DNA from: Blastococcus colisei
Lineage (GTDB): Bacteria; Actinomycetota; Actinomycetes; Mycobacteriales; Geodermatophilaceae
NCBI RefSeq assembly: GCF_006717095.1
Contig: NZ_VFQE01000002.1
Span: 124,001-188,000, forward strand
DNA: 64,000 nucleotides
Reading direction: 5' to 3'
Under the pieces are notes generated by a model. It made no database searches, was not told the origin of the DNA, and worked only from the letters and a program-made list of their open reading frames with translations. The position numbers and the translations under genes were made by a program. The number at the start of each line of letters is the position of its first letter. The first letter of the stretch is position 1. Below, one piece after another: positions 5,117-26,124 of the stretch.

Positions 5117-5182
5117 GGAGAAGCCCTTCACGTTGGTTGCCGGGTGCAACGCCGGGCCCGCGAGGAGCCTTCCCGCGCCGGT

Positions 5183-5223: not shown

Positions 5224-5232
5224 TCCGGCGTC

Positions 5233-5545: not shown

Positions 5546-5587
5546 CTTGCCCTACATGTTCCGACGGCGTGTCGAGCAGGGCGCAGG

Positions 5588-6172: not shown

Positions 6173-6374
6173 GGGCGCCGGCTGGGGTGATCCGGAGGAT
6201 GTGGTCACGGCTGGGCTCCCGTACTGGTCGGACGCGGCTGGAGGGAGGCCCATCCTGGCCCATGGGTGGCCGGCGGTGGATGTCGATCGTGTTGCAGGCG
6301 CCGCCGCGGCGGATCAGCCGTTCACCCGGTGGGAAGGCATCTCGGGGAACGACCACGAGCCACGGAGGAGCGAC

Positions 6375-6797: not shown

Positions 6798-6828
6798 ACG
6801 TGCCCGGCGACCTCTGCGCCATGGGTGC

Positions 6829-12451: not shown

Positions 12452-12460
12452 CGGCCGGGG

Positions 12461-12679
12461 TCACTCCTCCTCGGCCGCAGCCCGGCGCTCGGCGCCGGTC
12501 TCGCCCGCGTAGCCGACGTCCTGACCCGACGTCCGGCCGACGAACGTCCCGGACCCGCCGGTGCCCGTGGTGCCGGCCGCATCCGGCTGGTCGCTCTCCT
12601 CGCCGCCGGTGGCCCGGGACAGCGCCTGGGCGTCGTCGCGGTCGACGTCCTCCTCGCCCGGGCGGGGGTCGGTGCTCAC
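12461..12679 (-). CDS. Small acidic hypothetical protein
   Basis: 72 residues, strongly acidic and disordered in appearance (GEEDVDRDDAQ, EERRAAAEEE-like tail). Its start overlaps the stop of the carbonic-anhydrase-like gene by 4 nt (ATGA), so it is translated as the second gene of that pair. The overlap supports it being real. No family is recognised. Confidence 0.55.
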   Translation of the reverse strand: MSTDPRPGEEDVDRDDAQALSRATGGEESDQPDAAGTTGTGGSGTFVGRTSGQDVGYAGETGAERRAAAEEE

Positions 12680-13254: not shown

Positions 13255-13344
13255 CCCGCGCCTCCCGGTCGTCCTCGCGGCAGTCTTGCGGAGATGTGCG
13301 CGTTCGAGGAGGGGATCGGCCGCGGCCCGCGAGCGGCAGGGTGC

Positions 13345-13980
13345 CTATGCCGCCGTCGTGAAGCGGTCCGCTGCAGGACCCTCGAGGCGCCCGGCCGCGA
13401 TGCGCCGGCCGCAGAGGAGCAGCAGCAGGTCCTGCGCCCGCCCCTGGACGGGCTCCCCGCTGCCGTGGGACCAGGCGATGTCGGTGGCGCGGAGCTCCAC
13501 CCCGCCGACGTCCACGCCGAAGAAGGCGACGTTCTTCGGCCGCAGCCCGGCGAGCACCATGCCGACCCGTTCGGGCGAGGCGGCGTCGTCGAGGCCCAGG
13601 GGCGTCGACACGTCCAGGCCGTGGATGACGTCGTGGGACAGCGCGCCCAGCGGTCCGCCGCCCGGTGGGGACCACGGGTGCTCGATGTTGTCGCGCAGCG
13701 ACTCCCAGAGCTGGGCGGAGGACAGCACCTGGGCGTCGATGCGCGCCCTGCGGTCGGCCAGGCGGTCGAAGCTCCCCCGGGCCTTGACCATCTCCCACGC
13801 CACCCTGGGGAGCGAGTACCGGAAGGGCATCGTGATGTGTGCCAGCACCTCCCTCACCCGCCAGCCCGCGCACAGGCTGGGACGGTCCCAGTCCTGTTCC
13901 GACAGGGAGGAGTACAGGGCCACCTGCGCGCGCCGTTCCGCCGCGACGGCCGCCCTGATCCCGATGTCCATCTCTGCCAT
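13345..13980 (-). CDS. TIGR03083/DinB-like (mycothiol-dependent maleylpyruvate isomerase type) protein
   Basis: 211 residues from the ATG at 13980, preceded by GAGGAGGAC. The N-terminal half (SEQDWDRPSLCAGWRVREVLAHI) is the DinB-like four-helix domain of the MDMPI/TIGR03083 family; HIT and the later HDVIHGLD segment carry the His residues that bind a divalent metal in this family. Members use mycothiol as cofactor or have unknown substrates. The exact reaction is undetermined. Confidence 0.75.
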   Translation of the reverse strand: MAEMDIGIRAAVAAERRAQVALYSSLSEQDWDRPSLCAGWRVREVLAHITMPFRYSLPRVAWEMVKARGSFDRLADRRARIDAQVLSSAQLWESLRDNIEHPWSPPGGGPLGALSHDVIHGLDVSTPLGLDDAASPERVGMVLAGLRPKNVAFFGVDVGGVELRATDIAWSHGSGEPVQGRAQDLLLLLCGRRIAAGRLEGPAADRFTTAA

Positions 13981-14085
13981 GTCGTCCTCCTCGGGCCGCC
14001 CGACGGGCGATGCACACGGGCTTCGCAGGGAAGGACTCTGTGTCCAGCGGCTACTCATCGGTGCGCATCGGCCGGGAGGGCCGGG

Positions 14086-14466
14086 TCACGCCCGGGGAGG
14101 CGTCGTGCGGGCGTCGGAGACCCGGGCGTGGATGCGCCCGACCATCTGCTCCAGCGGGCTCGGTTCGTCACCCGGGCGGAGCGGCCCGGACGGCATGAGC
14201 ACCCAGAGCAGCAGGTACACGACGATGCCGGCGCCGCCCGCCACCGTGAGGCCGACGAAGCCGACTCGCCACAGCACCGGGTCGATGCCGCTGTACTCGG
14301 CGAGGCCCCCGGAGACGCCGCCGATCATCCGGTCGGTGCCCGCCGTCGCCAAACCGGTGGTCGACGGACTCGAGGCGTCGGCCTGCGGGCTGCTCGTCCG
14401 GGCGACCGCGGCCCAGGACTTCCCGTCCACGCCCGAGGCCGTGCGGTGCGAGGAGTGCGCCCGCAT
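14086..14466 (-). CDS. PspC-domain membrane protein
   Basis: 126 residues. A PspC domain spans about 45-105: MIGGVSGGLAEYSGIDPVLWR followed by a hydrophobic helix (VAGGAGIVVYLLLWVLMP). PspC proteins act at the membrane in envelope-stress responses. The start is uncertain because the first 40 residues are low-complexity. It is divergent from the short gene at 14554. Confidence 0.75.
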   Translation of the reverse strand: MRAHSSHRTASGVDGKSWAAVARTSSPQADASSPSTTGLATAGTDRMIGGVSGGLAEYSGIDPVLWRVGFVGLTVAGGAGIVVYLLLWVLMPSGPLRPGDEPSPLEQMVGRIHARVSDARTTPPRA

Positions 14467-14553
14467 CGCCGGCTGAGGCCAGGGGCACGCGCCTTGCCGG
14501 AACCGGCGGGGCCGCAGCAGGATCGAGCGCCCGATGTGGAGAGGGACTCGATC

Positions 14554-14763
14554 ATGGCGGCGAACTCCCGGATCAAGCCGGTCGAGCGAGCCACCCAGCG
14601 GACGTGGGACGAGTGGCTGCGGTTCATGGACGGCAGTGAGCCGAACAAGAACGGGACGGCGTCGCTCGTGGTCGACCAGATGGGTCTGCAGACGCTGGAA
14701 TTGAACGAGGAGGCCCGGGAGCGGTGGGCCTCGATCGTCCGCCGGTTCCTGGAGACCACGTAG
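14554..14763 (+). CDS. Small hypothetical protein
   Basis: 69 residues from the ATG at 14554 with GAGAGG upstream. The sequence is charged and helical (TQRTWDEWLRFMDG, EEARERWASIVRRFLETT) and lacks signal or membrane segments. It was not recognised as any characterised family. Balanced amino-acid use and a ribosome site support a real gene. Confidence 0.55.
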   Translation: MAANSRIKPVERATQRTWDEWLRFMDGSEPNKNGTASLVVDQMGLQTLELNEEARERWASIVRRFLETT

Positions 14764-15022
14764 TCGTCCGGGTACGGACGTCGGCGCCCCGACTGCTGGC
14801 GGCCCGCTCTCTGCCCGTGCCTGCGGTGCACGCTCTCGTCACGAACGGCGCGGTCGCCGCGCGGATCGACCCGGGCGGCGAGTTCGACGCGGCACCTTCG
14901 TCGTCGAGGACGGCCGGATCAGTCGATGTACGCCATGCGCGACCCGCACACAGTCGGCAGGCTCGACACGGTGGCCGAGCCGCGGCGGTGACGGAGGTCC
15001 GCGGCCTTGAGTCGGGAGCGAC

Positions 15023-16207
15023 GTGGAACGCAGCGAGATCCTCATCATCGGCGGCGGCAACGCCGGCATCTCCCTGGCGGCGCGGTTGATCCGCGACGGC
15101 GCCCGGGACGTCACCGTCGTGGCCCCTCAGCCGGTGCACCGGTACAAGCCGCTGCTCAACTACGTCGGCGCCGGCCAGGCGACGATGGCGGACCTCGAGC
15201 GCCCGATGGCCGACGTCGTCCCGGACGGGTGCAGATGGATCCGGGACAGCGTGGAGGCGGTCGATCCAGCGGCCATGACCGTGCGCACGCGCGGCGGGCG
15301 CACGCTGCACGGTGCGACCCTCGTCATCTGCCCCGGTCTCGTGGAGGACTGGGAGGCCACGCCTGGACTGCAGCTGGCGTACGCCGACGGGTGGGCTGCT
15401 TCCACCTACGTGCCGGGCAGCGCCCCGCAGGTGTGGCCGAGGCTCTCGTCGCTGCGCGGTGGCGCGGTCGTCTTCACCGTGCCGCCGGAGCCGGCCTCCT
15501 GCGGTCCGACCGCGCTCAAGCCGCTCCTCATGGCGTGCGACCACTGGGAGCGCGCCGGGGTCCTCCCGAACTTCCAGGTCCGGCTCCTCCTGCCGGCCGC
15601 GAGCGCGACCGGGCTACCGGAGGCCGACCGGATCCTGGAGCGCACCTTCGCGGACTACGGCATCGAGGTGCTGCGCGAGGCGCGCGTCGAGAGTGTGGAG
15701 TGGGACGTGCACGCGCTGACGGTCGCGACGTCCACGGGCCGGCAGGTGCTCGAGGACGTCGTGTTCGCCCACGCCGTCCCGCACTACCGGGCTCCGCGGT
15801 GGATCGCGGACGCCAGCCTCGCCGTCCACGCGACCCCCGGCCTGGTCGACATCGACCCGCAGACGCTGCGATCGCGCCGGCACGAATCCATCTGGGCGAT
15901 CGGCGACGCCGCCGACGTGGGCACCCGTCCCTCGGGTGGAGCGCTCCGCAAGCAGGTCGACGTCCTGGCCCAGAACCTCATCGGCGGCGCGCGCGGGAAG
16001 GCGCTGCAGCGGTACGACGGGTACACCGTCATGCCCATCACCGTGAGCCGGCGGAAGCTGATGCTCAACGAGGTCGATCGCGACGGTCGAGCGCGCCCGT
16101 CGGTGCCCTTCCTGAACCCGTTCACGTCGCGCCGCTGGCAGTGGCTGTTCGACCGCTACGGGCTGCCGCAGGTCTACTGGCGCCGCATCCTCCGCGGACG
16201 GGTGTGA
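15023..16207 (+). CDS. FAD/NAD(P)-dependent oxidoreductase (sulfide:quinone reductase-like)
   Basis: 394 residues from a GTG start. The N-terminal dinucleotide-binding motif is ILIIGGGNAGISLAARL; a second FAD landmark, IWAIGDAADVGTRPSGG, lies near 292-308 as in sulfide:quinone oxidoreductases and type II NADH dehydrogenases. The C-terminal part (PFLNPFTSRRWQWLFDRYGLPQVYW) is aromatic and may bind the membrane. Cys residues of true SQR enzymes are not clearly in place, so the substrate is open. Its stop lies 11 nt from the left end of the integrated element. Confidence 0.8.
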   Translation: MERSEILIIGGGNAGISLAARLIRDGARDVTVVAPQPVHRYKPLLNYVGAGQATMADLERPMADVVPDGCRWIRDSVEAVDPAAMTVRTRGGRTLHGATLVICPGLVEDWEATPGLQLAYADGWAASTYVPGSAPQVWPRLSSLRGGAVVFTVPPEPASCGPTALKPLLMACDHWERAGVLPNFQVRLLLPAASATGLPEADRILERTFADYGIEVLREARVESVEWDVHALTVATSTGRQVLEDVVFAHAVPHYRAPRWIADASLAVHATPGLVDIDPQTLRSRRHESIWAIGDAADVGTRPSGGALRKQVDVLAQNLIGGARGKALQRYDGYTVMPITVSRRKLMLNEVDRDGRARPSVPFLNPFTSRRWQWLFDRYGLPQVYWRRILRGRV

Positions 16208-16217
16208 GCCGGCTCAG

Positions 16218-16232
16218 ACGTTGAAGCGGAAC
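16218..16232. repeat. Left attachment core of the integrated element
   Basis: The 15 bases acgttgaagcggaac occur here and again at 25055-25069, where they are the last codons of ychF. Read on the minus strand the left copy also encodes FRFNV followed by TGA, the displaced original 3' end of ychF. The pair therefore marks the left and right ends of an element integrated by the tyrosine recombinase at 23931. Confidence 0.8.
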
Positions 16233-16336
16233 GAATCCGGGGTCATCGGACGACGTTGGCAAGCGACGGATATAGCGGCTGAGCTGCACATATGCCGTTG
16301 GGCAAGATCGGCCGCGATGGGCGCTGATTGACCGTC

Positions 16337-16355
16337 TTGCGGACGGTGTGCGGAC
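16337..16355 (+). repeat. Left candidate integrase arm-site pair
   Basis: TTGCGGAC (16337) and GTGCGGAC (16348) lie 11 bp apart, start to start. The same pair with the same 11-bp spacing is found near the right end at 24989-25007. Directly repeated short motifs inside both ends of an element are what arm-type integrase sites look like. The function is inferred. Confidence 0.45.
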
Positions 16356-16486
16356 CGCCCGTGGCTCGGCTCGCCCCTCGTCCAGCCCGTGCGCTCAGTG
16401 TAGGCAGCTGCGCTGTCCAGCCGTGTCCTCCACGGGGTCCCCCTACCAGCCGAGCCTGAAAGGGCATGACCAGCTTCTCGATCTAG

Positions 16487-16615
16487 TTCCACCGGGGTAC
16501 CTGCGAGCTCGACATCACCGAGTTCCCCGGCGAGCACGCGGACGAGAAAGCTCCCGCCGTTCGCGTCGACGCGGAGATCGCCGGGATCAACGGTGATCTC
16601 CCGGTACTCTGCTGA
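16487..16615 (+). pseudogene. 3' remnant of an unrecognised gene upstream of the antitoxin
   Basis: A short frame opened by a TAG at 16484 encodes FHRGTCELDITEFPGEH and ends AGINGDLPVLC at TGA 16615, 3 nt before the antitoxin start. The composition looks like genuine coding sequence and the spacing looks like an operon, but there is no start codon or 5' part. It may be the tail of a gene cut when the element was assembled. No family is recognised. The rest of the 410-nt left end holds only the attachment core and arm-like repeats. Confidence 0.3.
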
Positions 16616-16617
16616 TC

Positions 16618-16878
16618 ATGAGTTCCGCCGACGGTTGGGACCTCACCGTCCCCGAGGACGCAGCCGAGTTGCTCGCCGAGCTACGCCGCCACGGCGTGCG
16701 GCCCGGCCAGCGCCTCCACGTGGTTCGCGCCTCGGACGATCAATCGCAGCAGTCGAGTGAGCCGACCGAGGGCTCGGCCACTGGCACACTCGACTTCATC
16801 GGCTCGGTGCACGGCGGCCCTGCCGACCTCTCCACCCGGACCGACGACTACCTCCGGCGGAGCTTCGGCCGCGAGTGA
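16618..16878 (+). CDS. Probable VapB-type antitoxin
   Basis: 86 residues. The N-terminal segment (WDLTVPEDAAELLAELRRHGVRPGQRLHVVRAS) resembles the AbrB/Phd-like DNA-binding parts of small antitoxins, and the C-terminal segment (TDDYLRRSFGRE) would be the toxin-binding tail. Its stop overlaps the start of the PIN-domain toxin by GTGA, the usual arrangement for a vapBC operon. The antitoxin assignment rests mainly on this context. Antitoxins of this kind usually repress their own promoter. Confidence 0.65.
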   Translation: MSSADGWDLTVPEDAAELLAELRRHGVRPGQRLHVVRASDDQSQQSSEPTEGSATGTLDFIGSVHGGPADLSTRTDDYLRRSFGRE

Positions 16879-17300
16879 TCCTCCTCGACACCAACCTGCT
16901 CGTCGCTGCCGCCAGGACCGCAGACACCAACCACCACAGCGCGGCGCGGCTGCTCGAGACCCTCGTCGAACCGCGACTGGTCCCGCCCACCGTGGTCGCT
17001 GAGGTCTGTTACCTGCTCAGCGAATGGGGTGGTCCGGACGCCGAGGTCCGGTTCCTGCGCGACTTCCGGCCGGGTGGCCTGCGCTTGGTCGAGCTGACCG
17101 ACACCGATGTCGCTCGGATGGCCGACCTTGCCGAGCGGTATGCCGACCTCCGCCTCGGCGGTACCGACGCGTCGATCATCGCCATCGCCGAGCGCCTCGG
17201 CATCCATCGCATCGCCACGTTCGATCGGCGGCACTTCACGGTCGTTCGCCCCGCACATGTCGAGGCGTTCACGCTCTTGCCTGAGGCCACGTCGTCCTGA
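16875..17300 (+). CDS. VapC-type PIN-domain ribonuclease toxin
   Basis: 141 residues. The PIN fold is marked by the N-terminal ILLDTNLLVAAA with the first acidic residue (D5), a glutamate in VVAEVCYLL, and GGTDASIIAIAERLG with the third acidic position; the ATFDRRHF segment is the usual fourth. VapC toxins cleave tRNA or rRNA and arrest growth when the antitoxin is degraded. Here the pair can stabilise the integrated element or act in defence. Confidence 0.85.
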   Translation: MILLDTNLLVAAARTADTNHHSAARLLETLVEPRLVPPTVVAEVCYLLSEWGGPDAEVRFLRDFRPGGLRLVELTDTDVARMADLAERYADLRLGGTDASIIAIAERLGIHRIATFDRRHFTVVRPAHVEAFTLLPEATSS

Positions 17301-18132
17301 CCCGGCGAACACCCACGTCGACCCGGCACCGGCTCTGCCGTAGGTGCTCCGCGGTCCTCGTCCCCCCGGTATCCCGCCCGTAGGTCCATGGAGGGTGACG
17401 CTAGGGCCGGGTCCTCCAGGTCAGTGGTTACGTCTCCGAGAGGAGGGGTGACATTCGACTGGGCGTCTCGGTCAATGGCACTGACATTCCAGGTACCGCG
17501 GTTGGCAATGGTGGCCGGCGCGCTGGGGTGACCCTCATGCCGCCGCTCATTTACCAATGCCATCCAACAATGACCAGCATGCCACCCCCGAAGATGCCGA
17601 AGAGCCCGCGAGACGCGGCCGGAGCTACCCCTGTCGGTAGCATACGTGCCGTTCTGCAGTAAAGGGAAATTTGCTAGCGATAAGCGTTGGTAGCTAACGG
17701 TTGCGGGCAATCGCAGGCGTCATTTCATTGGCCATTAACAACAGTCGCTGATCATAGGCAGGATGACGACGGGCCGGTTGCTCGTGACGATGACGTCCCG
17801 CTGTGCCGGTGGCACAGACTCACGGGCCTCTCAGTTCGTCCGCACAGGCGGTCCGCCTACGGCGCACACACGAAAGCCAGCCGCTCGACGGCGTCTGATC
17901 AGCCTGCCGAACCTGGCCCCACCGCCCGGACCCGACCACCGCGCTGCACCCCACGGCCGGATGCCAAGGCGCCCGGTCCGATGACCCCTGCCCGCTACAG
18001 GTCTTGACTGGCGAGGCGAAAGCTAGTCCCCACGGCTCAAACGAGGGGACTTCTTCATGCGCCACGGGACTGTCAGACCCTGCTCCTACGGTCGGGAGGT
18101 TGCTATACCGCCGGTTTCAGGCAAGGGGAGAC
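17301..18132. other. 832-nt gene-free stretch within the element
   Basis: No supported gene is seen on either strand; a minus-strand open frame overlaps vapC antisense and looks like shadow sequence. The part from about 17640 to 17770 is clearly AT-richer than the surroundings. Near the end, AGTCCCC (18025-18031) and GGGGACT (18045-18051) form a 7-bp stem with a 13-nt loop followed by TTCTTC, about 80 nt before the Pycsar cyclase. This could be a terminator of an incoming transcript or part of a control region. Confidence 0.5.
18025..18056 (+). terminator. Stem-loop with short T-rich tail ahead of the Pycsar operon
   Basis: AGTCCCC and GGGGACT pair across a 13-nt loop, followed by ttcttc. 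It is positioned to insulate the Pycsar operon from upstream transcription. The stem is modest, so the assignment is tentative. Confidence 0.35.
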
Positions 18133-18834
18133 ATGACGCTGAAGGACGACGTCACTAAGGGCGTTAACGACGTGCTGGCTGCTTCGTGGAAGACCGAGAA
18201 CGCCACCGTCGTGCCCGAGACGGAGGACGTAGCGCTCGCCAACGGGGCGAAGCTGCTCGATGCGACCTACCTCTACGCCGACATGGCCGACTCCACTGGA
18301 CTGGCGCAGGGCTACGACAGCCCGGCCGTGGCCCAGGTGATGCGGGCCTACCTCAACGCGGCGACGCGCATCTTGAACGCCCAGGGAGGCAAGATCCGCT
18401 CGTTCGACGGAGACCGGGTGATGGCCATCTTCATCGGCAACGCCAAGAACACGGACGCAGCCACCGCTGGCCTCAAACTCAACCGGGTGCTCGACGAGAT
18501 CATCAATCCGGCGCTCAAGAAGAAGTGGCCCAGCTTCAAGTGGGTGATGACTCACGGCGTGGGCATCGACACCGGGCAGGCCATGATCGTGCGAGGCGGC
18601 GTGCGTGGACACAACGACCTCGTGTCCATCGGACGGGCACCGAACATTGCCGCCAAGCTCAGCGAGGTCCGCGGCGGCAAGCGGATCAACATCACGTCCG
18701 CCGTCTACAGCAAGCTGAACGCAGGCGCCAAGATCGGCGACAACGGCAACGACATGTGGACGAAGATGGGGACGACCACCTACGGGTCGAACCAGGTCAC
18801 CTACTACGGCTCCAGCTGGCGGAAGGGGCTGTGA
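18133..18834 (+). CDS. pycC: Pycsar pyrimidine nucleotide cyclase
   Basis: 233 residues from ATG 18133 with GGGGAG upstream. It is a lone class III nucleotidyl cyclase domain: metal-binding aspartates in YLYADMADSTGLA (D50) and RSFDGDRVMAIF (D94), GVGIDTGQ, and SIGRAPNIAAKLS with N171 and K175 at the transition-state positions. The short single-domain form and the PycTM-type gene overlapping its end match Pycsar anti-phage systems, where phage infection triggers synthesis of cCMP or cUMP. Which base is used cannot be read safely from the sequence. It would act in the cytosol and signal to the membrane effector encoded next. Confidence 0.85.
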   Translation: MTLKDDVTKGVNDVLAASWKTENATVVPETEDVALANGAKLLDATYLYADMADSTGLAQGYDSPAVAQVMRAYLNAATRILNAQGGKIRSFDGDRVMAIFIGNAKNTDAATAGLKLNRVLDEIINPALKKKWPSFKWVMTHGVGIDTGQAMIVRGGVRGHNDLVSIGRAPNIAAKLSEVRGGKRINITSAVYSKLNAGAKIGDNGNDMWTKMGTTTYGSNQVTYYGSSWRKGL

Positions 18835-19328
18835 CCGCCCCCGACACTCGCGACACCGCCTGGCGCATCCACGCGTCCATCGTGGACTGGACGGGCAAGG
18901 TCGACGCCAAGGCGTCCTTTGCGCTGGCGATCGAGTCTGCTGCTCTCGCCGGGATCGTCACGCTGACCGGCAGCGGGCGCCGGCTGGACGGTCTCTCCGG
19001 CTGGGAAGTCGGTCTCTTCTGGACCGGCATCGCCATCCTGCTGGCCGGCGTCCTATCAGTCATTACCGTGGTGGCACCGCGCCTGCGGTCAACCAAGATG
19101 CCCAGCGAGTGGCAGAACAACTATGTCTACTTCGGGCACCTGATGCACTGGAATCCTGAAGACCTCCAACAAGCTTTCGAGGAAGAGGATCCTGTCCCGG
19201 CGGTGACACGGAACATCGTCGTAATGAGCAAGATCGCCTGGACGAAGCACCGTCGGCTGCAAGCGTCCATGTGGCTCGCCACGTTCGGCGCGGCCCTGGT
19301 GGGTGTCGCCGCCGCGATGAACGGCTGA
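18831..19328 (+). CDS. pycTM: Pycsar transmembrane effector (PycTM / DUF5706-like)
   Basis: 165 residues from a GTG that overlaps the cyclase stop (GTGA), so both are made from one message. WRIHASIVDW...VDAKAS (about 11-29) is the conserved signature of Pycsar membrane effectors; hydrophobic helices lie at about 29-46, 57-82 and 146-164. The central soluble part has PEDLQQAFEE and a basic KHRRLQ segment. In characterised systems the effector binds the cyclic pyrimidine and disrupts the membrane, killing the infected cell. This copy appears intact. Confidence 0.8.
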   Translation: MTAPDTRDTAWRIHASIVDWTGKVDAKASFALAIESAALAGIVTLTGSGRRLDGLSGWEVGLFWTGIAILLAGVLSVITVVAPRLRSTKMPSEWQNNYVYFGHLMHWNPEDLQQAFEEEDPVPAVTRNIVVMSKIAWTKHRRLQASMWLATFGAALVGVAAAMNG

Positions 19329-19331
19329 CCC

Positions 19332-19694
19332 TCAGAGCGGGCGGATCGTCAGGTAGTCGGTCTCGCTCCACTGCTCCACTGCTTCTCGGCGAGCTCGCGC
19401 AAGACATAGCTGTCGCTTCGCAGAGGATGTCCTTGACCGCCTGGTCAGGTTGTTCGTGTCCGGCTCCTGCCGATGCGGCTGTCCATCCATCTCGGCCTTC
19501 TTCTTCGCGCTCCAGGAACGTGGCATCGAGATGCCGTAGATCAGCTCGACGTTGGCGGGGAACTGATAGCACACGGGCACTGTGAGCCGTAGCTCATCGG
19601 CGTAGGCCCGGTAACGCATTACAGCAGGCCGCTGCTTCCACTTATCGGAGCGGGTCTGGCGAGACTTAGCGACCGGGTCAACCTTTATCGTCAT
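19332..19694 (-). pseudogene. RusA-type Holliday junction resolvase, frame-scrambled at the C-terminus
   Basis: The 120-codon frame starts as a normal RusA family protein: a VPVCYQFPANVELIYG strand region, SMPRSWSAKKKAEMDGQPH and the acidic EPDTNNL. After that, family-like sequence continues only in other frames: QAVKDILCE in a second frame, then DSYVLRELAEKQW in a third, before the original frame returns at WSETDYLTIRPL. The pattern fits two 1-nt losses and an 8-bp tandem duplication (ctccactg twice, near 19365-19380), which together restore the frame. The downstream catalytic Asp region is thus out of frame and the enzyme is probably dead. RusA is usually phage-borne. Confidence 0.65.
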
Positions 19695-19811
19695 TCTTGC
19701 TTCTAATTCATCACTTATGTCACGCGACTACTACCCGAACTCGTTGCCCCACGGACTGTCACCGCACCCCCTTACCCTTGGACCTACCGGCCACCGACAG
19801 AGGGAGACAGC

Positions 19812-20525
19812 TTGAGCGACCTGGAGCGGGACATTTTGAACCGCCTGTCCACGCTGCTGAATCATCCGTGGGAGGTTCGCGACGGTCGGGTCGTCCCGGA
19901 CAGCAAGACGGTCTACGACAAACAGGCGGTCAAGCTCGACGCGACCTACCTCTACGCGGACATGGCCGGCTCGACCGAACTGGCTCAGTCCATCGACGCC
20001 GAGGTGGCAGCCAGGGTCATGCGGGTCTACCTGGACATGGCCGTGCGGGTGATCCGCTACAACGAGGGTGACATCCGCAGCTTCGACGGGGACCGCGTCA
20101 TGGGCATCTTCGTCGGCTGGGATAAGGAGAGCCGGGCGGCGAAGGCAGCACTCGGGATCGAGTACTGGCGGGGTTTCCTCGACTACTTACTCCCCACGCG
20201 GCTGGCGGAGGTCAAGGCAATCGGCTGGGAACTCAAGCACGGCGTCGGCATCGACACGGGAGAGGCTCTGTTGGTACGCGCGGGCATCCGCGGCAACGAC
20301 GACCTCATCTCCATCGGCCGGGCACCGAACATAGCGGCCAAACTCAGCGGTCTCCGGGAGGGCTACAGCCTCTACGCCACCGATGACGCCTACTACGGCA
20401 TGGACACGGAGACCTCTTACGAAGACGACGAATACAACCAGCCGAGGTGGACCTGGCTCGGTGAGCGAGACTTCGGGGGTCGCAAGGTCACGGTGTACGG
20501 GTCGAACTACGGCTGGGAGTACTGA
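19812..20525 (+). CDS. pycC: Second Pycsar-type pyrimidine nucleotide cyclase
   Basis: 237 residues from a TTG start preceded by AGGGAG. It is clearly paralogous to the cyclase at 18133, with D50 and D94 in the same positions, FDGDRVMGIF, HGVGIDTGEALLVR and an identical SIGRAPNIAAKLS block; the N-terminal and C-terminal parts diverge. All catalytic residues are present, so it may still be active. The effector gene directly downstream is broken, so the cyclase is either an orphan or serves the intact effector of the first operon. Confidence 0.8.
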   Translation: MSDLERDILNRLSTLLNHPWEVRDGRVVPDSKTVYDKQAVKLDATYLYADMAGSTELAQSIDAEVAARVMRVYLDMAVRVIRYNEGDIRSFDGDRVMGIFVGWDKESRAAKAALGIEYWRGFLDYLLPTRLAEVKAIGWELKHGVGIDTGEALLVRAGIRGNDDLISIGRAPNIAAKLSGLREGYSLYATDDAYYGMDTETSYEDDEYNQPRWTWLGERDFGGRKVTVYGSNYGWEY

Positions 20526-20527
20526 CG

Positions 20528-20702
20528 GTGCTCGACCCGGACGAGCGGGGCCTGGCGCCTCCACGCGGCGATCGTCGACTGGACGGGGAGGGCAGACACC
20601 AAGGCGAGTTTCGCTCTATCTATCGGATCAGACTGTTTTTCATGGTCTGACACGTTTTACGTTGTCTGGCCTCTGTTGAGTCGGCCAGTGATTGCATCGT
20701 AA
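20528..20702 (+). pseudogene. Decayed second Pycsar effector
   Basis: A GTG 2 nt after the cyclase stop opens a frame LDPDER; the family signature AWRLHAAIVDWTG-RADTKASFALSIGS is found in the next frame. Removing one G from the run at 20547-20550 joins them, so a 1-nt insertion broke the frame. Similarity to the intact effector stops near 20630, and unrelated AT-rich sequence runs to a TAA at 20702. All transmembrane helices after the first are missing. The gene cannot make a functional effector. Confidence 0.75.
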
Positions 20703-20733
20703 AGGTAGCTTGTGCGGGTAGACGCTTTTACGA

Positions 20734-20916
20734 CTACTGGCCATCCTCGTTGAGCAGCCGCTCGAGCCGGTCATGGCTTCCGCGGTCGACTGTATAGGCC
20801 TGACCCTTCGCAGTCAGAAGCTGGTATTCCCCACGCTGGGACTTGGTGATCACCAACACGTGATCGGTATTGATCCACAGCTCACCGTTCTGGACCCCGC
20901 ACTGAATGAAGGCCAT
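20734..20916 (-). CDS. Small hypothetical protein, FlbD-like pattern
   Basis: 60 residues from the ATG at 20916 with a purine-rich AAGGGTTGGGAAC upstream. The order of short strands (GELWINTDHVLVITK, EYQLLTAKGQAYTV) resembles the small FlbD-type proteins that carry a single beta-sheet domain, but this is a pattern resemblance only. It is a lone gene between the decayed effector and the LysM gene. Function unknown. Confidence 0.5.
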   Translation of the reverse strand: MAFIQCGVQNGELWINTDHVLVITKSQRGEYQLLTAKGQAYTVDRGSHDRLERLLNEDGQ

Positions 20917-20953
20917 GTTCCCAACCCTTCGCTTTCCGTTATCATGTCTATGA

Positions 20954-21037
20954 ATGCAGGATCATTATGGCATCGCTGGACTCATCGAGCTTGCCGAGCG
21001 CGGCCTGCTGGCCGGCTTCATCCGTGACGAGCTGTGA
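20954..21037 (+). CDS. Possible 27-residue peptide
   Basis: An ATG directly after an in-frame TGA opens a 27-codon frame with balanced composition (GIAGLIELAERGLLAGFIRDEL) and an amphipathic helical look. It is divergent from the 60-residue gene. No clear ribosome site is seen. It could be a genuine small peptide or the tail of a lost gene. Confidence 0.25.
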   Translation: MQDHYGIAGLIELAERGLLAGFIRDEL

Positions 21038-21141
21038 CTTGGGATCTCCGTGCGTCAGGTCCCGCGCCTCATTCATGACCGGCTCGGTCCTCGACCGACT
21101 CGCCGAGCCATCGAGCGCCGGGACGTTGTGTGCCCGTAGGC

Positions 21142-21609
21142 CTACAGAGGAATCCTAAGAATCTGCCCCACCTGGACCTTATTCGGATCTTGAAGGCTGT
21201 TGGCTGCCGTAATCTTCTGGACGTCGGACCCTGTCTCACGAGCGATGGCCGTCAAGGTGTCGCCCTTCACCACCTGATGCAGCTGATATCCGTGCATCCC
21301 TCCAATGACGATTACAGGCACGGATTGCGTGTCGAGGCCTGGATCGCGCTCCCCTGAAGGGTCGTCACCGAACAACTGGAACGTGGCGGGACCGACGTAC
21401 TCCGTGTTGACAGATGCTTTGTGGACGAAGGACTCCATGAGGCCCATCGAGCCGGCCGAGAAGAAGTCCTTGGCGATCTCGTGCTCTCCCGCGAGCAGCC
21501 GCCAGCCGTAGGAAGCTTCGAACGCCGTCCCCATTGCGGCGATCGGCAATGTCCTGCCGACCAGATCGCCCGCCAGAGGCTGCCGAAGCTGGATCCCGTA
21601 CGTGTCCAT
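21142..21609 (-). CDS. Gmad2-like immunoglobulin domain plus LysM protein
   Basis: 155 residues from the ATG at 21609 with a strong AGGAGGG site. Residues about 10-100 fit the Gmad2 immunoglobulin-like domain (LVGRTLPIAAMGTAFEASYGWRLL ... FFSAGSMGLMESF). Residues about 107-155 are a LysM module (YQLHQVVKGDTLTAIARETG, ITAANSLQDPNKVQVGQIL) that binds peptidoglycan or chitin. There is no signal peptide, so it is either cytoplasmic, exported by another route, or released on lysis, as a phage-type product would be. Confidence 0.75.
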   Translation of the reverse strand: MDTYGIQLRQPLAGDLVGRTLPIAAMGTAFEASYGWRLLAGEHEIAKDFFSAGSMGLMESFVHKASVNTEYVGPATFQLFGDDPSGERDPGLDTQSVPVIVIGGMHGYQLHQVVKGDTLTAIARETGSDVQKITAANSLQDPNKVQVGQILRIPL

Positions 21610-22357
21610 TTAAACCCTCCTGTGACTCGAGCGGGCACGCGCTGTAGCGAACCCTGCACTCAGGGTGCCCGCGCTCAGTAGCTCCAAACCACACACTTGC
21701 AACTACGTCTTCCAGCGGTGTGCGGACGGCCTAGAGATGGATCCCTCCCCTGCAGGACGCCCGGCGAGGCAGCTGCTGTGCTGTACGGACGTCGCTGCAG
21801 CGGTTCCCCGGGTGCGATCGCTCTGCGGTGACGGTGACGGCGGAGCCAGGGCTGTCAGACCGATCGAACTCAGTTCTGAGTGGGAGGCGCCTCTGCGCGC
21901 CGGCTATCGCCCCGCCAGCCCGTGCCCCGCCAGCCCTCAGTGCGGGCCAGGGGGTCATCCACCAGCCAGCGACGGCCCGGGCGGCCAGCCGGCTGACTCC
22001 TGGGACACGTCAGCAGGCTCGCTCGGACGTACGGGGGTCCCGGCGGCCCATCGGTCCTCAAGCATCGTGGCGACCAGCCCGCGAATGTCCTCGGGAACGG
22101 CGGCTCGGTCGACCTCGACAGACTCATCTGCCGCACTCCAGGTGTTTCGAACTCAGTCGCGCCGGTCCGCATCGAAGCGTCCCGGTATCCAATGCGCTAC
22201 GACGATGTTCCGGGGTCAGCCAACCGCTGGCGTCCTGTTGGGAATCCCTTGCCGGCACGCAGAACAGACCTGCACGGGGCCGCGAAGATGCCCCCGGCAA
22301 CACCACCTGTTCACTCATGTCGACGCCGAGCGGGGCGGCGCACTGAAGGTGCGAGGG
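21610..22357. other. 748-nt stretch with gene debris
   Basis: No intact gene is supported. On the minus strand one frame, interrupted by stops, gives three coding-like pieces: a Cys-rich CCRGHLRGPVQVCSACRQG segment (22216-22314, with a possible GTG start), NIVVAHWIPGRFDAD, and ADESVEVDRAAVPEDIRGL to the stop at 21955. This looks like one gene broken by nonsense mutations, or pieces of several. The CxxC-containing part suggests a small zinc-binding protein. Confidence 0.35.
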
Positions 22358-22909
22358 TCAGCCAGAAACGGCGACCTTCAGCTTGGTCATGAGCTCGGCA
22401 AACTGACCGTCGTTGCAGCCGATCACATCGCCCACCTGGAACCACTGGAGCACCACCGCCTTCGGCGACCAGTCGGCCGAAGCGACGCCCTTGTGGTGGA
22501 TAATGTCGTGACGGAAACGCCGCAGATCACCGAAAACATCGCTCGTCACGTTATTCAGCTGGACACCGCACAACCCGGCCAGATGCGGACGGTGCACGTC
22601 GTCCCAGCGATGGAATGTCGAGACAATCCACTGCTGCGCCAATGTCACCGGTGTTGGCCCGTGCGGGTCGGCGGCCGTCTCCAGTTCGGAACGCCGAACC
22701 CACAAGTGATGAGTCGGCGACCCCTCCGCATCGGGCGCACTAGCACCGATGAAGATTCTGGGGTCGGGGTTCTCCGTCGACCCACCATGCTGCGCGGTCT
22801 GGTCGGCGAAATGCTGGAGGCCGGCGACTGCGAACTTGGTCGTAACGTAGGTCTGTCGAAGTTCAGCGACGATTCCGCAGTAGTAATCCCGCGCCGGATC
22901 ACCACTCAC
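22358..22909 (-). CDS. Hypothetical protein with an HEPN-like RHDIIH motif
   Basis: 183 residues from a proposed GTG at 22909; upstream sequence in the same frame is Arg/Pro-rich shadow. It begins with a helical region (YYCGIVAELRQTYVTTKFAVAGLQHFADQ) and contains RRFRHDIIHHKG (R133-H138), which fits the R-x4-H motif of HEPN ribonuclease domains; helices before and after it are consistent with that fold. HEPN proteins are common in defence and toxin systems. Placement in an island with Pycsar and vapBC supports such a role. No partner gene (MNT or other) is adjacent. Confidence 0.5.
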   Translation of the reverse strand: MSGDPARDYYCGIVAELRQTYVTTKFAVAGLQHFADQTAQHGGSTENPDPRIFIGASAPDAEGSPTHHLWVRRSELETAADPHGPTPVTLAQQWIVSTFHRWDDVHRPHLAGLCGVQLNNVTSDVFGDLRRFRHDIIHHKGVASADWSPKAVVLQWFQVGDVIGCNDGQFAELMTKLKVAVSG

Positions 22910-23718
22910 GCCAGCAGGGTAACTTAGTCGCGCCTCGGTCGATGATGCCGTAGGCCATCCTCGTCGGGACGACGCCCCCTTGGAGTGAGCTTCCGGCCGA
23001 CGCGGGACCACCCACTGACACGTCCGCCGTCCACTCCCCTGCGCTTCCCACAACCCGCCCGATCCGGCTGGCGCTGGCCGAGGGAAGGGTCGGCCGCAGG
23101 CCGATCCCGAAGGGACGCGAAGCGCCCTTCCCGCGACCGAGGCAGCCGGCACGCTGATCGGGTGGGACGCGCGTCGCCGAAACCTCGGGCGTGCCGACGA
23201 GGGAGCCGGATTCTGTTCCTCAGCCATGGGTCAAGGCAGCCAACCTCACGCCGCGCCGTCACCGGGGCGCCTGCCGCCAGTCCCCATCCAGTCCCCAACA
23301 GGTTCAACAAGACCCATCTGTCTCCGAACGCCACCAACCATGAAAATGCAGGTCGGGCGGCCGATTAACGAAGAGCCGCAGGAGCTCAAGCACGCGGGGG
23401 GAGTTCGCGATGCACTACGACATCCGATCCACATAGCGCCCTGACCTGCGGGACGATCGCCGTCTCGATCGTCGTGCTGACCACCGGCGGAAACGGGCGA
23501 CGGGAGGCAGCAGGCTCGTCCATATAGCCGGCCGCTTGCCACGATTGACCTCCGTCCGGTGACCCCCAGGGGCCGCACGGGTCCGGAGGAAGAGTCGGTC
23601 AGAGGCCCATCGCATGAAGTCGCGCAGCGCCCATCCGGCGAACTCCTGCCGCCGACACGCTGCGGCCGGGCGGAGAGCGGGCATCCCATCGTCAACGCCT
23701 CCCAGGGGGGGCCCACGT
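22910..23718. other. 809-nt stretch without a supported gene
   Basis: Both strands carry only GC-rich open frames of shadow type. A short frame from the ATG at 23340 (MKMQVGRPINEEPQELKHAGG) resembles real coding sequence and its start region resembles that of the ORF at 23719, but it is only 34 codons. Several GC-rich inverted repeats occur around 23080-23150. Confidence 0.4.
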
Positions 23719-23916
23719 ATGAAACTCCAGGTCACCACTACGGGAGGAAAACTGGAGAAGCGGGTGGACACTCCGGTGCAGCTGGGCGCAGCCGCGATCA
23801 CGCCGATCTCCGGCTTCCACAGCGGCGATGGTCCGCCCACAAGTCTCGCCCCCAGCTTCACTGACAGACCTGTGCGCTACACCGTCACCTGGGGCGAGCG
23901 CCGACTCGATCGATGA
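23719..23916 (+). CDS. Small ORF overlapping the integrase start
   Basis: 65 residues beginning MKLQVTTTGGKLEKRVDTPV and ending VRYTVTWGERRLDR. Its TGA overlaps an in-frame ATG of the integrase (ATGA at 23913), which would allow coupled translation. Small genes at this position are often excisionases, but no helix-turn-helix is evident, so no function is assigned. The ribosome site is weak. Confidence 0.35.
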   Translation: MKLQVTTTGGKLEKRVDTPVQLGAAAITPISGFHSGDGPPTSLAPSFTDRPVRYTVTWGERRLDR

Positions 23917-23930
23917 CGAGAGGCAGGACC

Positions 23931-25031
23931 ATGGCCAGCATCTCGAGGTTGCCGAACGGTAAGTACCGGCCGCGGTACCGGGACGAGCGCGGCAAGGAGC
24001 ACGCTCGCCACTTCGACCGCAAGGTTGACGCCCAGCGCTGGCTGGACGAGGTCACCGCGGCCGTGGTCACCGGCACCTACGTCGACCCCGGCGCGGGCCG
24101 GCAGACCTTCGCCGAGTACTACGCCGAGTGGTCGGCCCGCCAGGTGTGGGCGCCCGGCACCGAGAGCGCGATGAGCCTGGCCGCCCGGTCCACAACCTTC
24201 GCCGACGTCCGGATGCGGTCCCTGCGCCGCTCGCACGTCGAGCACTGGGTCAAGAGCATGGTCAGCCGTGGCCTGGCGCCGGGCACCGTGCACACCCGGA
24301 CCAACAACGTCCGCGCCGTCCTGCGCGGCGCCGTCGCCGACCGCGTGATCCCGCGAGACCCGAGCGAAGGCATCGCGCTTCCCCGCCGTCGTCGCGCGGC
24401 CGCCGCCATGGCACTGCCGACACCCGCCCAGATTGGAGCGATCCTCGAGGCCGCCGACGGACCCTTCCGCGCCTTTGTCGGGCTGTGCGCCTTCGCCGGC
24501 CTGCGGCTCGGCGAAGCGGCCGCCGTCCGTGTCGGCGACGTCGACTTCCTCCGCCGCACCCTCACCGTCGCCCGCCAGGTGCAGCGCGCCCCCGGCGGCA
24601 CGATAGAGCTGCGCGCACCCAAGTACGGCAGCGAGCGACAGGTCTACCTCGCCCCGTCATTGGTCGACCTGCTCGCCCGGCACGTCGCCGCCCACTGCCC
24701 GGAGGGCACCTGGCTCTTCACCGGGGACGCCTGCCAGCCACCCCACCAGAACACCGTCGGCCACCGCTGGCGGACGACTCTCGCCGCGGCCGGCCTCAGC
24801 GGCGTCAAGCTGCACGACCTCCGGCACTTCTACGCCTCCGGGCTCATCGCCTCCGGCTGCGACGTCGTCACCGTCCAGCGGGCCCTCGGGCACGCCAGCG
24901 CCACCACGACGCTGAACACCTACAGCCACCTCTGGCCCACCGCGGAGGACCGCACGAGGCGGGCAGCCGAGGAACTTTTCGCGGACAGTTGCGGACTGGG
25001 TGCGGACTCGGCCACCTCGACGAGCCGCTAA
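23931..25031 (+). CDS. Tyrosine-type site-specific recombinase (integrase)
   Basis: 366 residues from the ATG at 23931 (AGGCAGG just upstream; an alternative ATG at 23913 adds six residues). The N-terminal arm-binding domain (SISRLPNGKYRPRYRDERGK) and the SAM-like core-binding domain are followed by a full catalytic domain: R192 in GLRLGE, K231, H295 and R298 in HDLRH, H321 in LGHAS, and the nucleophile Y331 in NTYSHLW. It inserts and excises the element at the 3' end of ychF. The stop lies 24 nt from the right attachment core. Confidence 0.93.
   Translation: MASISRLPNGKYRPRYRDERGKEHARHFDRKVDAQRWLDEVTAAVVTGTYVDPGAGRQTFAEYYAEWSARQVWAPGTESAMSLAARSTTFADVRMRSLRRSHVEHWVKSMVSRGLAPGTVHTRTNNVRAVLRGAVADRVIPRDPSEGIALPRRRRAAAAMALPTPAQIGAILEAADGPFRAFVGLCAFAGLRLGEAAAVRVGDVDFLRRTLTVARQVQRAPGGTIELRAPKYGSERQVYLAPSLVDLLARHVAAHCPEGTWLFTGDACQPPHQNTVGHRWRTTLAAAGLSGVKLHDLRHFYASGLIASGCDVVTVQRALGHASATTTLNTYSHLWPTAEDRTRRAAEELFADSCGLGADSATSTSR
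24989..25007 (+). repeat. Right candidate integrase arm-site pair
   Basis: TTGCGGAC (24989) and GTGCGGAC (25000) reproduce the pair at 16337-16355 with the same 11-bp spacing. They lie inside the last codons of the integrase gene, 48 bp from the right core. A further related TCGCGGAC starts at 24979. Confidence 0.45.
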
Positions 25032-25050
25032 CCTGCGCAAACATCCCCGG

Positions 25051-26124
25051 CTACACGTTGAAGCGGAACTCCACGACGTCGCCGTCGGCCATGACGTACT
25101 CCTTGCCCTCCATGCGAACCCGGCCCTTGGCCTTGGCCTCGGCCATAGAGCCGGCCTCCAGCAGCTGGTCGTAGGAGACGATCTCCGCCTTGATGAAGCC
25201 GCGCTGGAAGTCGGTGTGGATGACACCGGCGGCCTGTGGGGCGGTCGCGCCGACCGGGATGGTCCAGGCGCGGGCCTCCTTGGGCCCGGCGGTGAGGTAG
25301 GTCTGCAGGCCGAGCGTCGCGAAGCCGACGCGGGCGAGCTGATCGAGACCCGGCTCGTCCTGCCCGATGCCGGCGAGCAGCTCGGCGGCCTCCTCGGCAG
25401 GCAGCTCGGCGAGCTCGGACTCGATCTTGGCGTCCATCAGGATCGCCTCGGCCGGCGCGACCATCCCGCGGAGTTCGGCGATGAGCTCCTCGTTCCCGAG
25501 CTCCTCCTCGTCGACGTTGAAGACGTAGAGGAACGGCTTGGTGGTCATCAGGCCGAGCTCGCGCAGGGGAGCCGGGTCGACGCCGGCGGCGAAGAGCGTC
25601 CTGCCCTCGTTCAGCACCTTCTGCGCGTCGACGGCGGCGGCGTGCAGGGCGGCGCGCTCCTTGTCCTTGCGCATCTCCTTCTCCAGCCGCGGGATCGCCT
25701 TCTCCAGCGTCTGCAGGTCGGCCAGCAGGAGCTCGGTGTTGATCGTCTCGATGTCGTCCGCGGGAGACACCTTCCCGTCGACGTGCACCACGTCGGGGTC
25801 GGTGAACACCCGGATCACCAGGCAGATCGCGTCGCTCTCGCGGATGTTGGCGAGGAACTTGTTCCCGAGACCGGCCCCCTCGGACGCGCCCCGGACGATG
25901 CCGGCGATGTCCACGAACGACACGGTCGCCGGGATGATTTTCTGCGAGCCGAAGATCTCCGCGAGCTTCTCCAGCCGCGAGTCGGGTACGCCCACCACAC
26001 CGACGTTGGGCTCGATCGTCGCGAACGGGTAGTTCGCCGCGAGGACGTCGTTCTTGGTCAGGGCGTTGAAGAGGGTCGACTTGCCGACGTTGGGCAGGCC
26101 GACGATCCCGATGGTGAGACTCAC
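25051..26124 (-). CDS. ychF: YchF/OLA1-type ATPase
   Basis: 357 residues from GTG 26124, the normal family length. G1 motif GLPNVGKST, IAGIVRGASEGAGLGN (G3 region) and NVDEEELG (in place of the GTPase NKxD, as expected for this ATP-preferring family) are present, followed by the coiled-coil and the C-terminal TGS domain (DFQRGFIKAEIVSYDQLL). It binds ribosomes and is linked to stress control. Its 3' end is the integration site of the element; the reading frame has been preserved. Confidence 0.93.
   Translation of the reverse strand: MSLTIGIVGLPNVGKSTLFNALTKNDVLAANYPFATIEPNVGVVGVPDSRLEKLAEIFGSQKIIPATVSFVDIAGIVRGASEGAGLGNKFLANIRESDAICLVIRVFTDPDVVHVDGKVSPADDIETINTELLLADLQTLEKAIPRLEKEMRKDKERAALHAAAVDAQKVLNEGRTLFAAGVDPAPLRELGLMTTKPFLYVFNVDEEELGNEELIAELRGMVAPAEAILMDAKIESELAELPAEEAAELLAGIGQDEPGLDQLARVGFATLGLQTYLTAGPKEARAWTIPVGATAPQAAGVIHTDFQRGFIKAEIVSYDQLLEAGSMAEAKAKGRVRMEGKEYVMADGDVVEFRFNV
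25055..25069. repeat. Right attachment core within the ychF 3' end
   Basis: Second copy of acgttgaagcggaac; it encodes the last residues FRFNV of YchF, whose stop TAG (25051-25053) is now supplied by the element. The left copy is at 16218-16232. Confidence 0.8.

Follow-up and report, generated by a model that had tools for sequence, protein, structure and literature searches.

A Pycsar-carrying integrative element at ychF that looks like a MobF mobilizable element losing its autonomy

The window, i.e. the whole 64 kb stretch of DNA analysed here, harbours an insert of 8.85 kb (16218..25069) at the 3' end of ychF, which is edged by exact 15-bp repeats (Table 1). Matches to this 15-mer core were found nowhere else in the 64 kb, even when two mismatches were allowed (chance mean 0.06), and the GC content amounts to 64.6% across 16233-23900 compared to 72-73% in the flanks. 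A preliminary description of this DNA had taken the direct repeat as the boundary of the insert and had proposed that the right copy restores YchF with FRFNV, while the left copy keeps FRFNV followed by a different stop. Both points were confirmed at the claimed positions when the cores were read on the minus strand (TAG and TGA stop, respectively). The single-core site with TGA stop predicted for relatives lacking the insert was found in two genomes of the same genus (L042 in G011, L044 in G013), in which the FAD oxidoreductase gene is joined to ychF and its match stops ~20-30 bp from the ychF end. Direct-repeat ends, restored gene end and empty site in relatives thus bear out the proposed site-specific integration; judged from its sequence, the segment is a site-specific integrative element at ychF. 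The integrase described earlier as complete was recovered as an open frame at the ychF end with phrog_1 and Pfam matches.

Table 1 Features of the element at ychF and of its borders (window coordinates).
Feature	Position	Strand	Remarks
Host flank, FAD-dependent oxidoreductase	15023..16207	+	Pfam Pyr_redox_2; adjoins ychF in L042 and L044
Distal att core ACGTTGAAGCGGAAC	16218..16232	+	minus strand still reads FRFNV-TGA
VapB-like antitoxin, 86 aa	16618..16878	+	named by position only, no family match above cut-off; 77% identical in L051, likewise before PIN gene
PIN-domain toxin, VapC-like	16875..17300	+	Pfam PIN E 6.7e-18; 83% identical in L051
Scar at position of the G. africanus MobF relaxase	17427..17530		~0.1 kb here vs 3.6 kb there; blastn blocks either side
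oriT-like region, partly decayed	17530..17655	+	72-74% identity to regions upstream of MobF relaxase genes elsewhere
PycC1, Pycsar pyrimidine cyclase	18133..18834	+	PADLOC PycC E 9e-84; BcPycC 7r65 E 8.5e-47
PycTM, Pycsar membrane effector	18831..19328	+	Pfam PycTM E 7e-19; PADLOC PycTM E 1e-41
PycC2, second Pycsar cyclase	19812..20525	+	PADLOC PycC E 8e-69; 7r65 E 8.6e-28
Truncated PycTM remnant behind PycC2	20550..20640	+	direct repeat D4, 78%; 31 aa at 65% identity
Unknown 60-aa protein	20734..20916	-	no family match above cut-off
Gmad2 + LysM protein	21142..21609	-	Pfam LysM E 1e-14, Gmad2 E 1e-6
orf8, unknown, start uncertain	22358..22927	-	no family match
Cloverleaf, candidate single-strand origin	23042..23174	+	long stem and three hairpins, mostly C-GNA-G closed
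Second cloverleaf copy, weak, degenerate	23551..23680	+	36 bits, same strand as first
Tyrosine integrase, open frame	23931..25031	+	start 23931 or 23943; phrog_1 E 6e-59; Pfam Phage_integrase E 8e-23
ychF, target gene, last codons in att core	25051..26124	-	minus strand right core reads FRFNV-TAG
Proximal att core, within ychF 3' end	25055..25069	+	exact 15-mer repeat

In Pycsar defence, PycC makes a cyclic pyrimidine nucleotide upon infection, which activates a membrane effector and stops the cell. The element encodes one complete pair of this kind, a PycC cyclase adjoining a Pycsar effector (PycC1-PycTM). In alignments with 7r65, the letters of BcPycC involved in UTP recognition (Y50, D94 and R97, residue numbers as given in PMC11224242) are the same in PycC1 and PycC2. 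Two cyclases before one PycTM also occur in three of the four other genomes of the family with a PycTM match, the first cyclase being split in L202. The claim that defence genes dominate the cargo holds for the Pycsar genes and VapBC, but has to be qualified by the LysM/Gmad2 protein and two unknowns, whereas the scanned frames of the window copy bear out the claimed lack of structural and conjugation genes. A search of 95 further genomes from the family gave no relative of orf8 at E <= 0.001; its product contains RHDIIH, which may be an RX4H motif of HEPN type.

Relatives of the integrase are frequently found at the same site, as the preliminary description had suggested checking: of 80 kept integrase loci, 35 have ychF within 9 kb and 19 of these are adjacent to it. 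Downstream of ychF, 14 of 31 stretches from relatives gave an integrase match, with at least three of these stretches (L069-L071) fetched owing to an already seen match. The integrase of Geodermatophilus africanus, likewise located at ychF, is 97% identical to that of the window, and the integrase gene is 93.6% identical at the DNA level in this other genus, compared to just 87.1% for the host ychF genes. In an integrase tree with usable rows from 76 of 93 loci, the window groups with L077 and L078 (support 100/97) and, one step further out, with L051 (100/99). Two loci of this four-integrase clade carry a MobF relaxase gene, namely L077/L194 from G. africanus and L051 from B. tunisiensis, while L078 gave no relaxase match. 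Matches to two excisionase queries were lacking in the window and equally in L051 and L077, which do carry a relaxase. MobF elements and capsid-bearing elements alike appear to use ychF as their att site in many Actinomycetota.

The G. africanus stretch combines the closely related integrase and a related VapBC pair with a 3.6-kb MobF relaxase gene (12441-16058 in L194) and an oriT-like region upstream of it. Aligned to L194, the window is collinear up to the VapC tail, followed by a 3.6-kb gap, and resumes in the oriT-like region; it therefore matches both flanks of the relaxase gene without the gene itself. No relaxase match was obtained in the window element, where the gene is missing relative to L194, and the scar holds just 46 nt that weakly match the relaxase gene of L194 (blastn, E 0.018). 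The L194 VapC matches in three pieces, as if its frame were broken there, and the element in L194 could not be traced to its distal end. In L051, the relaxase, a related VapBC and a cloverleaf lie between two cores. The order VapC-relaxase was seen in L194 only; VapBC of L051 adjoins the integrase. L051 and L093 each combine two cores with a relaxase of their own, and the matches listed include no secretion family. More broadly, neither secretion nor coupling proteins were among the families listed (25 of 40 Pfam) for 59 proteins from nine loci of MobF relatives (57 of 84 frames plus two further L194 frames), which were scanned as one set with families not split by locus. Taken together, these findings make it probable that the element is a relaxase-deleted derivative of a ychF-specific integrative mobilizable element (IME) with a MobF relaxase.

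The preliminary description had favoured an undescribed satellite-like family instead. That is not the best reading for the window copy since two loci of its clade carry a MobF relaxase gene both flanks of which are matched by the window. Elements with phage proteins also occur at this site: an HK97-type head protein is encoded in L143 and L056, both at ychF, in L143 together with a primase, and a tape-measure protein in L097, so that satellite-like cousins exist there; moreover, the LysM domain in the window also matches endolysin families. The window copy is nevertheless very unlikely to be a phage satellite or small prophage that has degenerated to integrase and defence cargo, as the scanned window frames gave no structural, terminase or primase match, the integrase of L056 is just 36% identical and the relative collinear with the window belongs to the MobF elements. 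We dropped this explanation for the window copy; head and packaging matches were likewise absent from the scanned frames.

Is this element still mobile? Its oriT-like block is a candidate oriT, named so from position and conservation. It retains the inverted repeat CTACC/GGTAG together with the invariant block next to it, but the window differs at nine columns that are invariant in 16 other sequences, compared to a maximum of three changes in any other sequence. The decay of this block makes present transfer doubtful, and the nine changes mean that the element may be dead. Alternatively, it could be a currently mobile hitcher of the iOriT type that is moved in trans by the MobF relaxase of another resident element. 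The preserved repeat with its adjoining block, five MobF relaxase matches at other places in the same genome and the close integrase in another genus would fit such a lifestyle, which we still regard as rather unlikely given the decay of the remaining block, an oriT identity resting on position and conservation, and the lack of an excisionase match.

The stems of the cloverleaf are conserved by covariation (88 double-changed cells compared to 22.6 after shuffling, 0/500, in alignments fitted to the model), and the d(C-GNA-G) loop is known for its stability. The region of the degenerate second copy (23570-23700) folds no better than shuffles. With E up to 1, Rfam yielded nothing reaching the gathering score for window positions 16000-25200 and the L194 stretch; for the L245 stretch, there were no matches of any score. 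Across 96 genomes of the family, the cloverleaf was found in 44, the relaxase in 45 and both in 39 (p 5e-15). Cloverleafs located up to 20 kb from a MobF relaxase lie upstream of it and on the opposite strand in 53 of 54 cases (not independent by descent), and raising the limit to 40 kb gave the same placement in 61 of 62. This count leaves out 17 of 122 listed rows scoring below 53 bits (five are antisense duplicates of strong matches, the others weak sites); among the 105 retained rows, 36 are on contigs without a relaxase match and 15 are more than 20 kb away, including the cloverleaf of the window itself, which is hence outside the 54.

A fixed side and strand relative to the relaxase would also be expected of an Frpo-like single-stranded DNA promoter for leading-region genes, and in the window, the three frames named on the oriT side of the cloverleaf, as far as PycC2, occupy the strand that such a promoter would serve. 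Among 61 distinct copies (63 matches) inspected with a home-made codon-usage gene finder, 60 had an oriT-side gene, and the nearest of these genes was predicted on the expected strand in 27 and on the other strand in 33. The absence of a strand bias argues against a promoter; we consider this function quite improbable and dropped it as the main reading.

The cloverleaf is not confined to MobF elements. It recurs in RepSA elements (two tested, L245 and L251), one of them with an FtsK-family protein, and its placement is strand-specific in all 17 out-of-family loci with an integrase match (20 sites in total; L253, L257 and L264 had no integrase match). None of the proteins tested from L253, L262 and L264 were replication or transfer proteins. 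In five of eight plasmid stretches with a match, a relaxase operon on the same strand follows the cloverleaf at a distance of 0.2-0.8 kb, and three of these five plasmids were typed MOBP. Cloverleaf and relaxase thus share a strand in these plasmids and lie on opposite strands in MobF elements. The plasmid positions might suggest that the structure is part, or a mimic, of the oriT of MOBP conjugative plasmids. This is unlikely, however, since a gene separates it from mobC in L271 and L273, and it is also present upstream of a plasmid rep gene and in the RepSA elements, including the one with the FtsK-family protein.

We infer instead that the cloverleaf is a single-strand origin or priming site. 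Two features expected of such origins were observed, namely stem-loops conserved by covariation (in the model-fitted alignments) and strand-specific placement near MobF relaxases, in the integrase loci and in all five plasmids with a nearby relaxase operon (of eight), with a strand relation that differs between MobF elements and plasmids. Plausibly, if short of probably, it belongs to an undescribed family of single-strand origins (or primase loading sites) that spans the class and serves Actinomycetota mobile elements with a single-stranded stage, namely MobF IMEs, rolling-circle actinomycete integrative and conjugative elements (AICEs) with RepSA and relaxase plasmids, the hairpins being read on the displaced or transferred strand. 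The putative transferred strand is the one expected by analogy with F and R388. A second-strand site is also known for pIJ101; as a candidate cloverleaf it was rejected, since model R1 had no match in pIJ101 at E <= 0.5.

We thus suggest the following history. An ancestral MobF IME would have lost its relaxase gene by deletion. The integrase presumably acts by recombination between the 15-bp core and the ychF 3' end. A circle, if excised, would depend for its transfer on a relaxase in trans, possibly that of one of the MobF matches at other places in the genome, and on a secretion system from another source. Pycsar would act as in known systems, whereas VapBC would have a stabilising role. The cloverleaf would be active in single-stranded form, most likely as an origin for the complementary strand (single-strand origin) or as a primase site once single-stranded transfer or rolling-circle replication has taken place. 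The locus therefore looks like a Pycsar-carrying element caught losing its autonomy, with integrase, defence cargo, decayed oriT-like block and cloverleaf left. If the cloverleaf is indeed a single-strand origin, elements with a single-stranded stage would share one recognisable DNA mark across the class, providing a direct way to test how they start second-strand synthesis.

Like canonical IMEs, the element has a tyrosine integrase and occupies the 3' end of a housekeeping gene, and its scanned frames gave no match to a mating-pair apparatus; unlike them, the window copy lacks a relaxase gene of its own and the relaxases of its relatives are MobF (TrwC). According to a 2017 IME review (PMC5704250), no known canonical IME encoded MobF or MobH. 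Integrase and oriT-like region without a relaxase resemble iOriT hitchers or relaxase-less IMEs (as defined in PMC11389934), but the candidate block is decayed here. AICEs of the pSAM2 type have the cloverleaf in common with the element (L245 and L251 with RepSA), yet the scanned window frames had no match to RepSA, RepAM, Prim-pol or FtsK/TraB. The target also differs: it is ychF here, whereas most AICEs with a tyrosine recombinase target tRNA genes, as stated in PMC3218068. Capsid, packaging and primase matches, as in phage satellites (PICI, cf-PICI, P4-like), were absent from the scanned window frames. We take capsid-encoding satellites (cf-PICI-like) to be comparable in small size and integrase, with L143 and L056 sharing the ychF site. 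The complete PycC1-PycTM pair is BcPycC-like and corresponds to known Pycsar systems, to which the window adds a second cyclase with a truncated effector. Finally, the cloverleaf resembles sso1 of ICEBs1 in its three stem-loops; sso1 is described in PMC4595007 as functioning in an orientation-specific manner in an element that transfers as single-stranded DNA, whereas the cloverleaf, a candidate origin by sequence, consists of one long stem topped by three hairpins.

The ends of the 8.85-kb element are marked by the direct repeat ACGTTGAAGCGGAAC, of which the window holds no further copy with up to two mismatches allowed (chance mean 0.06). Read on the minus strand, the right core ends ychF with FRFNV-TAG and the left core gives FRFNV-TGA, GC content between the cores is low (64.6% vs 72-73% in the flanks), and a tyrosine integrase gene adjoins ychF, which bears out the repeat-bounded insertion of the preliminary description. 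The empty site it had predicted was found among 31 stretches of relatives running downstream from ychF: in two of the same genus (L042 from genome G011, L044 from G013), the FAD oxidoreductase is joined to ychF with one core and a TGA stop. Relatives also insert at ychF, a point that it had proposed to check, with an integrase match adjoining it in 14 of the 31 stretches, which is not a frequency since at least three (L069-L071) were fetched for a known match. In stretch L045, two cores lie 1.4 kb apart with ychF-like sequence after each, which looks like a duplication of the ychF 3' end. A pneumococcal prophage attB is likewise flanked by ychF, according to the accessible part of one paper (PMC8637289).

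In a survey of genome contigs that retained the 80 best of 198 loci with an integrase match, ychF is adjacent to the integrase in 19, lies 1-9 kb off on the opposite strand in 16 more and has no match at 45; elements with both cores located measure 2.1 to 16.3 kb. Related Nocardioides and Georgenia loci, including L081, L082, L089 and L093, have the integrase 1-9 kb from ychF; most carry gattca directly ahead of the core, and the 12 included in an integrase tree of 76 of 93 loci form one clade (with five unlabelled rows). The same tree groups the window integrase with those of Geodermatophilus africanus (L077) and G. nigrescens (L078; support 100/97), joined next by Blastococcus tunisiensis (L051; 100/99). 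Since DNA identity between the window and G. africanus is higher for the integrase genes (93.6%) than for the ychF genes (87.1%), the sequences point to movement of the element between genera.

The site has tenants of other kinds. HK97-type major head proteins occur at ychF in L143 (E 2e-36) and L056 (E 3e-37; integrase identity only 36%), a primase in L143 (E 4e-72), a tape-measure protein in L097 (E 5e-53), and weaker primase matches in a protein of L199. The suggested satellite-like family thus gains some ground in L143, L056 and L097, but not for the window copy. The 9-kb Actinoplanes element in L143 also has a helix-turn-helix-like frame and an integrase, and is possibly a capsid-encoding satellite.

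The nature of the window copy emerges from relaxase-bearing relatives. Locus L194 of G. africanus, read in reverse, runs from ychF through the integrase, three cloverleaf motifs with cargo and an oriT-like region to a MobF relaxase gene and VapBC; its distal core was not found within the 18 kb fetched. Its three cloverleafs lie on one strand and separate the cargo blocks, so that a cassette or recombination role is conceivable. Its PIN frame, matched as three separate pieces, looks broken, and its frames were read as including a dGTPase and an MFS gene (one match each in the scanned set, member unnamed). The window aligns with the VapC tail of L194 and ~127 nt further (83%), reaching the relaxase gene end; over the next ~0.1 kb nothing but a weak 46-nt match recalls that gene (E 0.018), and alignment resumes at 74% from the first relaxase codons through the upstream region. 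The simplest reading of this alignment is that the relaxase gene was lost in the window's line. In L051, two cores 11.2 kb apart enclose a cloverleaf, a VapBC related to the window's (77% and 83%) and a relaxase of the TrwC family (Pfam E 5e-51). Outside the element, the window's genome has five MobF relaxase matches.

Alignment of the region upstream of the relaxase, from the window and 16 relaxase-bearing loci, revealed an invariant block, TAGCAT-CGTGCCG, preceded in the window and several others by the inverted repeat CTACC/GGTAG, as well as a longer hairpin; this region looks like an oriT. The window retains block and repeat, the remainder being damaged: it departs from the other 16 at nine columns in which these all agree, compared to at most three for any other sequence. 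The element is a real, ychF-specific integrative one, best read as a relaxase-deleted MobF integrative mobilizable element (IME) with Pycsar, and has probably lost independent mobility. Its MobF-bearing relatives are of interest too, because a 2017 review, in its accessible part, knows of no canonical IME with a MobF relaxase (PMC5704250).

The first cyclase and the effector gene of the Pycsar cargo overlap by 4 bp. When aligned with BcPycC (7r65), both cyclases show the letters of its UTP-recognition residues Y50, D94 and R97 (numbering from PMC11224242). Among 96 Geodermatophilaceae genomes, five have a PycTM match, the window's being one of them; in three of the other four (L200, L201, L202) two PycC genes precede one PycTM, the first cyclase being split in L202, and the weak match in L203 has no PycC within the 9 kb fetched. 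A heterodimeric cyclase is possible. The remaining cargo comprises VapBC, a LysM/Gmad2 protein, orf8 and a 60-aa unknown; for orf8, 95 other genomes yielded no relative. An Rfam match to the ALIL pseudoknot is weak (23.5 bits vs a gathering score of 50) and probably due to chance.

Coordinates of features in the window and in loci of relatives
Stretch	Feature	Position	Remark
Window	Left core	16218-16232	
Window	PycC1	18133-18834	matches Pycsar models
Window	PycTM	18831-19328	matches Pycsar models
Window	PycC2	19812-20525	followed by remnant of second PycTM
Window	ALIL-like match	21535-21611	minus strand
Window	Cloverleaf	23042-23174	133 nt, non-coding, between orf8 and integrase
Window	Right core	25055-25069	
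L194	Cloverleafs	2954-3087, 5126-5259, 8006-8138	
L194	MobF relaxase gene	12441-16058	
L045	Cores	17673, 19105	
L143	Element at ychF	2023-11087	
L200	Tandem-cyclase Pycsar	8346-10479	
L201	Tandem-cyclase Pycsar	6851-8904	
L202	Tandem-cyclase Pycsar	7666-9735	

The most novel part of the element is its retained cloverleaf. It consists of three hairpins atop one long stem and, folded alone as DNA, is better than its shuffles (z -3.0; -3.2 and -7.8 for two G. africanus copies). Of the 96 genomes of the family, 46 have a match to its covariance model R1 (E <= 0.001). Across 60 distinct cloverleafs, in an alignment fitted to the model, 97.2% of cells pair and 88 are double-changed vs 22.6 after shuffling (0 of 500 shuffles); in an unfitted alignment of 17 sequences there were 32 pairs, six of them double-changed, and the covariation term was small. 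The three loops read C-GNA-G in 58, 57 and 51 of the 60 sequences, and DNA hairpins with such loops are unusually stable. The 96 genomes hold 113 MobF matches and 105 cloverleafs that score 53 bits or more. Of these cloverleafs, 54 have a relaxase start within 20 kb; all 54 lie upstream of it, at 0.3 to 19 kb, and 53 on the opposite strand (50 of 51 distinct relaxases agree, the exception being in G075), and 39 genomes hold both, of 44 and 45 with cloverleaf and relaxase, respectively (p = 5e-15), counts that are not independent by descent. The nearest predicted oriT-side gene had no strand bias (27/60).

Beyond the family, R1 matches in 43 of 296 Actinomycetes genomes (E <= 1e-5), the window's own included. 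At 17 of 20 of the strongest out-of-family sites an integrase match lies downstream on the cloverleaf's strand, within ~2.5 kb in 15, and most sites have the gene layout of actinomycete ICEs (AICEs). RepSA was found in both candidate proteins tested for it (L245, L251) and an FtsK-family domain in the only one tested (L245); the proteins tested from L253, L262 and L264 were not of the RepSA/FtsK kind. These copies aligned with one plasmid copy gave 76 double-changed cells vs 21.1 shuffled. Two of them matched 31 and 33 of 72,556 plasmids (blastn, E <= 0.01), including three Acidiphilium records; a G. africanus cloverleaf matched one (E <= 0.001), pIJ101 had no R1 match, and one AICE cloverleaf had none in 50,697 phage records. 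Of eight plasmid stretches with a match that were read, five (L265, L270-L273) have a relaxase operon on the cloverleaf's strand, 0.2-0.8 kb downstream of it (typed MOBP in L265, L270 and L273); L267 has a rep gene downstream, and L266 and L269 have neither nearby.

What may such a structure do? Its strand relation to the relaxase is opposite in MobF elements and the same in the relaxase-operon plasmids, a discrepancy that is unexplained unless transfer directions differ. The structure did not appear in titles and abstract openings on single-strand origins, Frpo, stable hairpins, AICEs, pIJ101 sti and cloverleafs, a corpus largely outside subscription journals, and it may be in print. The machineries identified beside cloverleafs all use single-stranded DNA. 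Because of these neighbours and a likeness to ICEBs1, we give about even chances to the cloverleaf being a single-strand origin or primase site: as described in the accessible part of its report, the single-strand origin of ICEBs1 has three stem-loops, as the cloverleaf has three hairpins, and works in one orientation only (PMC4595007).
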